NCBI RefSeq assembly: GCF_002865985.1
Contig: NZ_LNDD01000003.1
Coordinates: forward strand, 310,001 to 374,000
Source: Thermotoga sp. SG1
GTDB lineage: Bacteria > Thermotogota > Thermotogae > Thermotogales > Thermotogaceae
Reading direction: 5' to 3'
DNA length: 64,000 nt
The translations under genes and the position numbers were made by a program. The notes under the pieces are model-generated. The model saw only the letters and a program-made list of their open reading frames with translations, was not told where the DNA came from and ran no database searches. Of this stretch, positions 47,938-51,356 are shown piece after piece; position 1 is the first letter of the stretch, and every line of letters begins with the position of its first letter.

Positions 47938-48147
47938 TTGAGAGTAGATGGTGTCGGATACAATCCAGTTTATCCGAACCATCCGGTGCAGCGCTCTCTG
48001 TCCAACGGTAGCACTCCCGTTATGAGTAAGGAGCAGATGGAGCGGATCCTTTTCTTCTCCCTCTATCAGCAAGCAGGCTTGAACGTGAAACTGGTGAGGA
48101 TCGCAGGAGAGCTTTACTCTGGAAAAACACTGGATCAACTTGTGTGA
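47938..48147 (+). CDS. Small conserved-looking hypothetical protein
   Basis: A 69-residue protein starting at TTG 47938 behind GGGGAGGTGG. The N-terminal half is disordered-looking and proline/asparagine rich (VGYNPVYPNHPVQRSLSNGS). The C-terminal half is one amphipathic helix (KEQMERILFFSLYQQAGLNV) and a short tail. I recognise no family. The good ribosome-binding site and tight packing between the peroxiredoxin and the GH130-like gene argue that it is real. Confidence 0.6.
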   Translation: MRVDGVGYNPVYPNHPVQRSLSNGSTPVMSKEQMERILFFSLYQQAGLNVKLVRIAGELYSGKTLDQLV

Positions 48148-48185
48148 AAGGGCAAGATGCCCCTTCACTCGTGGGGGAGTGGGGC

Positions 48186-49190
48186 ATGGCAGAGGAGATT
48201 TTAAGAAAACTCCTTTTTCATAAAAGATCGCTGAGAAAAGACGAAACGATCGACATTTTCAGAAGGGTGACCTACTTCTTTCCCAAAGATTTCGTTCTCA
48301 CGAACTACCCCAGACAACCCGTTGCCGTTTTCAACCCGGGAGCAGTCCTCGTGGGAAAGAGCCTCCATGTGTTTCCGAGGGTGATATTCGATTACTACAA
48401 GTACGTGTCGTCGATTGGCCACTTCGTGGTGGACATCGATGAACTGCTCAGCAAAGAAGTGAAAAGACCCATAGAGATGGAGGTCGTTTTCTGGCCACGA
48501 GACATTCAGGAGTTCCTCGGCTGCGAAGATCCAAGGGTCTTTTTCAGAGACTCCCAGTTCGAGATACTGTACACGGCAAAAGGATACAAAGACTGGTCGC
48601 AGGAAGGGAAACCGCACACGGACTTTCTTGCTTACGCTGTTTTGGATGAAGATCTGAATCTTCTGGAAAAGAAATACATCTCCATAAGAAGCACGCTCGG
48701 TGATTTCATCCCCGTTTCGATGAAGGACAGTTCTTTTGTGGAATCGAACGTGATACTGACCAGAATAACGGTGGGAGACACCAAAGTCTGCTGGCGTGGA
48801 AGGATGGAAGGAGATTCCATAGATCTCTACAGTCTGGACCCGGTCTTCTTCCCCGAAGAATGGGAAACGAAGGTCGGATGGTCCACCAACGCTATCAAAG
48901 TGAAGAAAGGTTACCTCATAGGCTGGCATGCGGTTCTCAAAGACCTCACCTACAAAAACGGTCTGGCACTTGTGGACAGCAGGGGGAAACTCCTTGGAAC
49001 AACGAACTACGTTCTCTCACCAAAAGGCGTGATCGAAGAGTACGGTGACAGGATCAGGGTGATATTCGGCTGTGGACTTGTGGTATACGAAGGAAAGGTG
49101 ATATGGATAGGTGGTGTCTCCGACTGGGCGATAGGTGTGTTCGAGGCCGACGAAGGTGAGATCATGAATTTAATGAAAGAAGCAACATGA
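48186..49190 (+). CDS. GH130-like glycoside phosphorylase/hydrolase family protein
   Basis: A 334-residue five-bladed beta-propeller candidate of the GH130 type. VFNPGAVLVGKSLHVFPRVI, VSSIGHFVVDIDELLSKEV and the CEDPRVFFRDSQFEILYTA block with the conserved E-D-P-R are recognisable. KVGWSTNAIKVKKGYLIGWH follows in the later blades. Family members phosphorolyse beta-mannosides or related sugars using inorganic phosphate; the substrate here is open. The ATG at 48186 follows GGGGGAG. The start region is preceded by an imperfect GAAAGGGCA/TGCCCCTTC hairpin that lacks a T tract. Confidence 0.78.
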   Translation: MAEEILRKLLFHKRSLRKDETIDIFRRVTYFFPKDFVLTNYPRQPVAVFNPGAVLVGKSLHVFPRVIFDYYKYVSSIGHFVVDIDELLSKEVKRPIEMEVVFWPRDIQEFLGCEDPRVFFRDSQFEILYTAKGYKDWSQEGKPHTDFLAYAVLDEDLNLLEKKYISIRSTLGDFIPVSMKDSSFVESNVILTRITVGDTKVCWRGRMEGDSIDLYSLDPVFFPEEWETKVGWSTNAIKVKKGYLIGWHAVLKDLTYKNGLALVDSRGKLLGTTNYVLSPKGVIEEYGDRIRVIFGCGLVVYEGKVIWIGGVSDWAIGVFEADEGEIMNLMKEAT

Positions 49191-49232
49191 TTTTAACAGT
49201 AGAGTGGTATCGTAATTTCGTGAGGTGAGAAC

Positions 49233-49334
49233 GTGTACAGTTTCGTACTCTTCGAGCAAGGAATTCTAAGTGATATGATAATGTGCACTACACCAAAGAG
49301 CCGGCCCTTCAGCGGACCGGGGGTTTCTGCGTGA
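49233..49334 (+). CDS. Candidate 33-codon leader ORF overlapping the pseudoknot element
   Basis: GTG at 49233 follows GAGGTGAG (49222-49229) at good spacing and reads MYSFVLFEQGILSDM and on to PFSGPGVSA, with a TGA at 49332-49334. The last dozen codons run through the first strands of the structured RNA described next, and the stop lies in its 4-base loop. If translated, ribosomes would unfold the element. The alternative is that the RNA starts downstream, near 49286, and this frame is fortuitous. No amino-acid run typical of classical attenuators is present. Confidence 0.35.
   Translation: MYSFVLFEQGILSDMIMCTTPKSRPFSGPGVSA
49251..49279 (+). promoter_or_regulatory. Possible promoter of the pseudoknot leader
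   Basis: TTCGAG (49251-49256), a 17-base spacer and TATGAT (49274-49279). The -35 is weak. The predicted start near 49286 would lie just upstream of the closing helix of the RNA element, so the leader would contain the whole structure. Confidence 0.4.
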
Positions 49335-49386
49335 CCGCTGAGCAGAAATCGAGGGGCCGGCCAGAAGGTCGGCCCCTTTGTTTTTC
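49300..49386 (+). promoter_or_regulatory. Candidate riboswitch/attenuator: closed H-type pseudoknot overlapping a terminator
   Basis: Helix P1 pairs GCCGGCCC (49300-49307) with GGGCCGGC (49354-49361). Inside, TCAGCGG (49309-49315) pairs with CCGCTGA (49335-49341), and GGTTTCTGC (49322-49330) pairs with GCAGAAATC (49342-49350). The last two cross each other with no base between their 3' strands. The P1 3' strand is also the 5' arm of a 10-bp terminator, GGGGCCGGCC (49353-49362) with GGTCGGCCCC (49367-49376), then TTTGTTTTT. P1 and terminator are mutually exclusive, so stabilising the pseudoknot should turn the next gene on. I match it to no known riboswitch class. Confidence 0.75.
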
Positions 49387-49403
49387 AGAAGGAGGTGAAA
49401 GAA

Positions 49404-49913
49404 ATGAGAGTTCAGATCGGAGAGCCTATCCTGGGAACATCACGGTTCAGAAGGTTCGATCTTGGAGGATGCTCTCTGATGATCGGAAGGGAATACACAG
49501 GGAAGCTGCCAGATATCGATTTCTCTGCAAAGAGCGTTCAGGAAATCGGAGAAGATCTGATGAACACACTGGACGAATTCATCCTGGAAAGAGACGGAAA
49601 GGTGTTCCTGAAACTGACCAGTCCTCTCACACTTCGTTACTCAAAAGATCTGACAATCAGGATAGATCCGTCCTTGACTCCTGCTTTTCTCATCTTCGAA
49701 GATTTTGAAGATGGCAGAGGATGCGTTGTGATGGCAAGAACCGAAGAGACGGCAGAAGATCTGATCAAAAGATTCGATGAAACGGTGAAATGGCCAGAAG
49801 ACTTTCCAGGCTTTCTGAGAGCAGTGAAGAAGAACGATCATGTACTTGGAGTGGTGGGGAGTGTTGGAAAGGTAACAGGAATATGGACGAGGGGAAATAT
49901 CGTGGTAATTTAG
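49404..49913 (+). CDS. Protein of unknown function controlled by the pseudoknot element
   Basis: A 169-residue soluble protein starting at ATG 49404 behind GGAGGTGAAAG, 17 bases after the attenuator T tract. No family is recognised. It begins MRVQIGEPILGTSRFRRFDL and has no membrane segment or signal. Mixed alpha/beta sequence includes KVFLKLTSPLTLRYSKDLTI and ends in a glycine/valine-rich strand region (VLGVVGSVGKVTGIWTRGNI). It is monocistronic: the next gene is on the other strand. The only functional hint is its elaborate leader, which suggests control by a metabolite, ion or RNA signal. Confidence 0.75.
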   Translation: MRVQIGEPILGTSRFRRFDLGGCSLMIGREYTGKLPDIDFSAKSVQEIGEDLMNTLDEFILERDGKVFLKLTSPLTLRYSKDLTIRIDPSLTPAFLIFEDFEDGRGCVVMARTEETAEDLIKRFDETVKWPEDFPGFLRAVKKNDHVLGVVGSVGKVTGIWTRGNIVVI

Positions 49914-49989: not shown

Positions 49990-50787
49990 TCAGAATGCTA
50001 GATACACCATCGCTTCAGGATTGACCACGTAGAAAGTGAACGTCTCCGTCACAAAGAGCCTTACGCTGTCTTTTTCCCTGTCTTCGTAGCCTATCGACAG
50101 ATCCTGTCCAAGAATCAGCTTGAAATCTCCTCCTCGTTCGGATACAACAAGAGCGTCTTCGATTCTGGGTGTGGTGATGACTCTTCCTCCGAGAAGTTCC
50201 GTCACCCTTTTTTCGAGGGGATAGTACCCAGTCTCTTCCTTCAGGAAGTTGATCCATCTGTCAGTGTTTATGACGAGGGTGTAGGGACCATCTATACCGT
50301 CTTTCGAGAACGTCGAAAGAGCCCTCACCAGAGATTCAAGAAGGTCCTTTGAAGAATTCCCAGACTGGATCTTTCGTTCCTCTTTGAAGGAAAGAAGGCC
50401 TTTCACGCCGGACTTTTCGCACCCCTCGAATATCACTTCATCTTCGAACTCTGCCACCTTTCTCACGGTCTCTTCCAAACTGGAGAGATCTATGTTTTCT
50501 TTTCCCCTCTCTAGATTGTCGAGTTCCCACAGCTTGAGGGTAAATGTCGCTCTCAACTCGATCAGTGGAAGGGATTTTCTCAGCCCCCATTTCACGGCTT
50601 CATTCTCCTCTGAAAGCACTTCAACCTCTCCAAGCGGATGAGCAGCGTACTCCCAGCCGTAAGGACCTTCTACATCGATGAATCTTCTTCCATAGAGTTG
50701 TGTTTTGAATATCTCCCTTGCTCTTTTGTCTATTTCCTGCCATTGTCTTTCTGTCAGAGGAGCAAATGATCTTTTCAGAAATTCCAT
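49990..50787 (-). CDS. Encapsulin shell protein (family 1)
   Basis: A 265-residue HK97-fold protein that self-assembles into a protein nanocompartment. It starts [20 protein letters not shown] and carries [60 protein letters not shown] and [20 protein letters not shown]. All of these match the well-studied T. maritima encapsulin, which forms a 60-mer around 24 nm. The cargo gene is 13 bases upstream on the same strand, so shell and cargo are co-expressed. Some older annotations call this family linocin/bacteriocin or CFP29 maturation protease; the shell role is the current understanding. Confidence 0.97.
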
Positions 50788-51242: not shown

Positions 51243-51346
51243 CCCTTCCCCAGGGGGAGCTCCTATTCCGGGGCTGAGAGGAGGACGGAAGTCCTCGACC
51301 CCTAGAACCTGATCCGGGTAATACCGGCGGAGGGAATGGGGAAGGA
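51243..51346 (+). promoter_or_regulatory. TPP riboswitch (THI element)
   Basis: The conserved core is clear: GGGGCTGAGA (51280-51289) and CCTGATCCGGGTAATACCGG (51308-51327) followed by CGGAGGGA. The closing helix is CCTTCCCC (51244-51251) with GGGGAAGG (51338-51345). It binds thiamin diphosphate. The 3' part, GGCGGAGGG (51327-51335), can pair with CCCTCCGCC (51358-51366) of the terminator; ligand binding prevents this antiterminator, so TPP turns the operon off. Confidence 0.97.
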
Positions 51347-51356
51347 AAAGAAAAAA

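Follow-up and report, generated by a model that had tools for sequence, protein, structure and literature searches.

Attenuators of the trp, his, leu and ilv type have a short leader ORF directly 3' of a promoter-like site, an antiterminator and a terminator that exclude each other through a common 5' arm, an additional competing hairpin, and a gene start past the terminator. In TnaC and the Erm-type leaders, including the transcription-attenuating ermK, a conserved stretch of the nascent peptide ends where a stalled ribosome would free regulatory RNA, and stalling favours downstream expression, whereas small pseudoknotted riboswitches place the competition for a terminator in a short leader. 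Our search of the open-access literature found no case of leader-peptide (ribosome-operated) attenuation in Thermotogota.

Here we describe a locus in a 64,000-nt stretch of the Thermotoga sp. SG1 genome (the window, in whose numbering all coordinates are given) that is best read as an unannotated leader ORF followed by an attenuator, probably controlled by the ribosome. The locus has all of the trp-type features named above, but differs from the classical attenuators in lacking a run of identical control codons (Met-Ile-Met-Cys only, fewer than in the classical cases), in an antiterminator whose 5' strand falls within the ORF and whose two strands are separated by the stop codon, and in a leader peptide that is conserved past the candidate control codons. 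With TnaC and the Erm-type leaders it shares a conserved stretch of ~17 residues ending at the corresponding position and a putative stalling that would favour downstream expression; it differs from them in that no known arrest peptide in the family libraries matches it and in that the putative stalling has no known inducer. Compared with the pseudoknotted riboswitches, the common feature is terminator competition in a short leader, but the Thermotoga element has no Rfam match, its pseudoknot is unconserved and half of it is coding. By analogy, the ribosome-type logic that we infer for this leader resembles that of trp and erm.

The architecture (leader ORF, antiterminator and terminator) is well supported by sequence comparison; for the sensing step and the signal we put forward hypotheses. 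If correct, the reading would extend ribosome-operated leader-peptide attenuation to Thermotogota, provide a small and tractable attenuation system operating near 80 °C, and hint at what a shortened, so far uncharacterised COG2122 protein does, by linking its control to translation or sulfur.

Organization and distribution of the leader unit

A DNA search of 61 genomes returned seven homologous loci, which together with the window gave eight Thermotogaceae sequences for comparison. Six of the seven are from the same genus (75–92% identity) and one is from another genus of the family (72%). The leader unit occurs once per genome, always directly before the same gene, and among 45 genomes of the order the leader pattern and the protein are confined to these eight. 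The features of the locus in the window are as follows.

49205–49213, forward strand: putative extended –10 element of the leader transcript (TGGTATCGT; TGGTATNNT in 8/8 homologues in the alignment)
49222–49229, forward strand: ribosome-binding site (RBS) of the leader ORF (GAGGTGAG in 7/8, GAGGGGA in G010)
49233–49334, forward strand: leader ORF of 33 aa with GTG start and TGA stop (MYSFVLFEQGILSDMIMCTTPKSRPFSGPGVSA), previously unannotated
49275–49286, forward strand: codons ATG ATA ATG TGC (Met-Ile-Met-Cys) from the codon listing, candidate stall or control site
49300–49310, forward strand: segment A, 5' strand of the antiterminator, within the leader ORF (core GCCGGCCC at 49300–49307 invariant in 8/8)
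49314–49320, forward strand: segment D (GGACCGG), which can pair with A as a competing hairpin (GGACCG in 8/8)
49351–49362, forward strand: segment B, shared by the terminator, as its 5' arm, and the antiterminator, as its 3' strand (pairing in all genomes)
49367–49378, forward strand: segment C, 3' arm of the terminator (T tract at 49377–49385)
49390–49398, forward strand: RBS of the downstream gene (AGGAGGTGA, read from the sequence), outside the terminator
49404–49913, forward strand: gene under the proposed control, encoding a 169-aa short, divergent COG2122/UPF0280 relative (ApbE superfamily), assigned from profiles and a structure model

A conserved and translated leader ORF

The small ORF uncovered by this analysis is open in all eight genomes, with its RBS, start and stop positions kept, and ends about 20 nt before the terminator. 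Between the start codon and segment A, codon differences in the eight-genome comparison number 82, 46 and 140 at positions 1, 2 and 3, respectively, and upstream of A there are 87 synonymous codon differences in the leader frame, compared with 19 and 3 in the remaining two; both the synonymous excess and the third-position bias are limited to the frame of the leader ORF. Judged by these substitution patterns, the leader ORF is therefore translated into a peptide upstream of A. This peptide is conserved as protein over ~17 residues, reading M-x-S-F-V-L-F-E-Q-G-I-L-S-D-M-I-M-C in the genus and E-x-G-I-L-S-N-M-I-M-R in G010. Searches against the Pfam and NCBIfam models gave nothing above threshold for the peptide, and across 103 genomes of the class it was found solely upstream of the COG2122-like gene, all other matches having E > 0.3. 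A published T. maritima study (PMC3636130) reports 13 putative ncRNAs, of which four contain ORFs shorter than 40 aa.

The candidate stall site combines two invariant Met codons with one Cys codon: ATG ATA ATG is unchanged in 8/8 genomes, and the following TGC is present in 7/8, being replaced by CGC (Arg) in G010.

The –10-like element at 49205–49213 is the putative promoter of the leader transcript; a consensus scan for sigma-70-type sites returned none at this position. We also considered a second promoter, internal to the ORF and immediately 5' of segment A, at TATGATAAT (49274–49282). Its bases are conserved but are also those of the Met-Ile-Met codons, and its –35 region, inspected by eye, is unconserved in G003 and G010. 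Within 49274–49290, ATGATAATG and, in 7/8 genomes, ATGATAATGTGC look like a –10 element and are fixed even where a change would be synonymous. We keep this promoter as a minor possibility.

Mutually exclusive hairpins and a shift in constraint

Segments A, D, B and C can form three mutually exclusive hairpins, A:D, A:B (the antiterminator) and B:C (the terminator). The A:B pairing comprises 10–13 bp in 8/8 genomes and 11 bp in the window (49300–49310/49351–49361), where a C-to-U change in A is accommodated as a single U.G pair with B. The B:C stem comprises 10–12 bp in 8/8 genomes and 12 bp in the window (49351–49362/49367–49378). With B common to both, only one of A:B and B:C can form at a time, in every genome. 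The weaker A:D hairpin, at –5.6 to –12 kcal/mol, is the minimum-free-energy structure of its segment in 8/8. By the general criteria for leader-peptide attenuators, a translatable, conserved ORF with an RBS and an exclusive A:B and B:C pair were thus each found in 8/8 genomes. Segments A and B are invariant, so that their pairing is almost without covariation support. A survey of 464 kb of the genome yielded 34 terminators, and none of the others rivals this one in the length of upstream sequence complementary to the 5' arm: 8 exact here and no more than 7 elsewhere. The 101-nt leader has a folding z of –2.9.

The coding signal does not extend past the start of segment A: between there and the stop codon, differences by codon position number 40/38/36, yet A and D are fixed. 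The Arg codon CGG, which is part of A, is kept in 8/8 genomes though it makes up 3.5% of Arg codons (212 long ORFs of the window genome), and G010 keeps D as GGACCGGG although the frame of D relative to A is shifted. Together these observations argue for RNA-level constraint within the coding region, and we take them as signs that the constraint changes from peptide to RNA at segment A.

This change of constraint bears on the best-surviving alternative, in which the leader ORF would simply encode a small protein and end in a terminator of its own, partial read-through would account for expression of the 169-aa gene, and A:B would have no use in regulation. Such a gene would account for the conservation of the peptide as protein over ~17 residues, and for a strong terminator 16–19 nt past the stop codon, as at many gene ends. 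It fits poorly, however, with a carboxy-terminal part held at the RNA instead of the protein level, with the fixation of a rare codon and of element D, and with the retention of the A:B pairing in 8/8 genomes; nor did Pfam or NCBIfam yield a small protein above threshold, and the ORF is known solely in front of the 169-aa gene. We consider this alternative unlikely.

Folding predictions are consistent with a competition between A:B and B:C in an attenuator. Transcripts that end before C are predicted to fold into A:B in 8/8 genomes, and when A is blocked, the predicted ensemble probability of B:C exceeds 0.99 at both 37 and 80 °C. For the full-length, free RNA at equilibrium, B:C is favoured in the window and A:B in G010, and several other homologues are predicted to be balanced between the two at 70–80 °C with all RNA free. 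Since equilibrium prefers the terminator in the window, the ON state there would need kinetic formation of A:B, and on this folding model the outcome is likely to be kinetic.

An attenuator with this A/B/C layout might alternatively be driven not by the ribosome but by temperature or by a protein that binds the RNA, perhaps the COG2122-like product itself. The near-invariance of A, D, B and C beyond the needs of pairing, which extends to a conserved G.U pair within the terminator stem, and the convergence of the predicted A:B and B:C stabilities at 70–80 °C in several homologues speak for a switch of this kind. In neither case, however, would there be a role for the coding leader ORF, for its RBS or for where its conserved motif is placed, and structurally the product matches a COG2122/ApbE-like protein, with no known RNA-binding domain found. 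We regard a protein- or temperature-driven switch as quite improbable.

The crossing helices are not conserved

A preliminary description of the region had proposed a closed H-type pseudoknot that serves as an aptamer and competes with the terminator. Its three helices (49300–49307/49354–49361, 49309–49315/49335–49341 and 49322–49330/49342–49350) and its hairpin with T tract (49353–49385) can all be drawn in the window. The outer elements proved to be real and longer than drawn: the closing helix, given as 8 bp, is paired in all eight genomes and shows no variation across the alignment, but spans 11 bp as A:B, and the terminator, given as a 10-bp stem, is a hairpin with a T tract whose stem has 12 bp. 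Likewise, the proposed ON/OFF arrangement, with an antiterminator strand competing for the 5' arm of the terminator before the gene, is conserved in all eight genomes.

The crossing helices fared differently. Across the eight-sequence alignment, pairing is kept in 64% of cells for the 7-bp inner helix and in 75% for the 9-bp one. The covariation check that the preliminary description had itself named gave both-sided changes at 1/16 inner pairs, no more than in shuffles; the pseudoknot thus lacks conservation by covariation in the homologues. Four of the eight homologues do not allow any two crossing helices of 5 bp, and two others form merely a different crossing pair, no better than chance, limiting the pseudoknot proper to the window and its nearest relative, G002. 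Nowhere is the leader less conserved than in this inner region. The 11-bp A:B helix clashes with the 7-bp helix that begins at 49309, and 49300–49334, the 5' half of the supposed aptamer, lies inside the conserved small ORF that the preliminary description had missed. That this half is coding points to the ribosome, not a ligand, as the sensor. In the window considered alone the pseudoknot is beyond chance, as crossing helices of 16 bp in total were reached in 0/300 dinucleotide shuffles of the inner region. The expectation that no known class would match also held: Rfam reported no family at threshold at this locus and, at gathering and permissive thresholds, nothing credible, the best sub-threshold matches being unrelated sRNAs, and there was no T-box match in the window.

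We thus rejected the pseudoknot as a conserved core of the element, being absent from most homologues and without covariation. On this comparison the locus is not a pseudoknot riboswitch, and control of the terminator by a ligand-binding closed H-type pseudoknot, although drawable beyond chance in the window, present in G002 and outside every known Rfam class, is very improbable given its restriction to 2/8 homologues, the overlap of its first inner helix by the extended A:B and its coding 5' half. The case illustrates that a pseudoknot convincing in a single sequence can vanish when homologues are compared.

A model for translation-controlled attenuation

A translation-controlled transcription attenuator is the best explanation of the locus, one that we regard as probable rather than secure. 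The ribosome as sensor, its stall site, the ON/OFF polarity and the signal are steps that we infer. Transcription probably starts near 49220, and the leader ORF of 33 codons would be made first. Should the ribosome stall no later than Met-Ile-Met-Cys, or should translation be held up there in another way, segment A would be free to pair with B; this would block the terminator and allow the COG2122-like gene to be transcribed (ON). A ribosome reading through A to the stop codon would sit on or between A and B (at the stop, 49332, it would cover roughly 49316–49345), so that B:C would form and transcription would end (OFF).

Counted from the first base of the codon in the P site, the leading edge of a ribosome lies ~15–16 nt ahead. 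By this geometry, a ribosome with the Cys codon (49284–49286) in its P site would have its edge at ~49299–49300, right before A, and at the next codon it would begin to cover A; Met-Ile-Met-Cys, the best-conserved stretch of the peptide, thus ends at the last position that would leave A free. Stalling may come about through scarce charged tRNA (Met, perhaps Cys) or through peptide arrest, both of which fit the sequence. The signal would be a shortage of methionine or another sulfur amino acid, or else a metabolite to which the nascent peptide responds, and a methionine or sulfur signal is plausible.

A narrower version of the model is offered tentatively, as somewhat unlikely in its entirety. 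In it, the leader would act as a nascent-chain or Met/Cys sensor and halt the ribosome one step short of A, making the locus a sulfur-metabolism attenuator of a repurposed COG2122 protein in deep-branching, hyperthermophilic Thermotogota that use sulfhydrylation and not the HcyBio route.

The downstream protein and its sulfur context

In a single-sequence Pfam search the downstream protein returned a blank, and five of the eight family members match PRK04334 weakly. Several lines of comparison nonetheless place it near COG2122. A profile of the eight proteins retrieves canonical COG2122 genes that neighbour HcyBio in other Thermotogales (E ~1e-9 to 3e-10), an hhalign comparison of the family with COG2122 gave 95% over 131 columns, and a confident AlphaFold model of the eight-sequence alignment (mean pLDDT 85) has a sole significant Foldseek match, the DUF375 protein DVU1097 (PDB 2o34, E 4e-5). 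The family is shorter, at 169–174 aa compared with ~240–260 aa for canonical COG2122, and LERDGKV replaces the canonical VENGGDI motif in the downstream protein.

In Desulfovibrio vulgaris, COG2122 is needed for homocysteine formation together with DUF39/HcyBio (PMC5764234). HcyBio, the usual partner of COG2122, is absent from 8/8 carriers of the leader unit and present in 25/37 other genomes, which makes a sulfur function of the shortened protein uncertain. A link to HcyBio-dependent homocysteine synthesis was accordingly discarded; a looser sulfur link remains. The carriers are eight of the nine Thermotogales genomes with an O-acetylhomoserine sulfhydrylase over the curated cut-off, a co-occurrence that fits a sulfur amino-acid context as weak evidence confounded by kinship, seven of the eight belonging to one genus. 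HcyBio with canonical COG2122 is found in 25 genomes and the sulfhydrylase over the cut-off in nine, one genome having both; several family members have neither HcyBio nor the sulfhydrylase over the cut-off. Methionine routes are patchily distributed among the Thermotogales genomes (G007 and G014–G042; for example L060–L071 and L073–L078). Rfam detected no SAM riboswitch near the metY-metA pair.

Neighbouring features

Directly 5' of the leader lies a gene for a GH130 mannooligosaccharide phosphorylase (48144–49190, forward strand). Convergent with the attenuated gene is that of a type 1 encapsulin shell protein (49990–50787, reverse strand), whose T. maritima relative is PDB 3dkt. Further downstream, a TPP riboswitch (RF00059, 80 bits; 51243–51353, forward strand) precedes a Thi4-like gene and thiamine genes.
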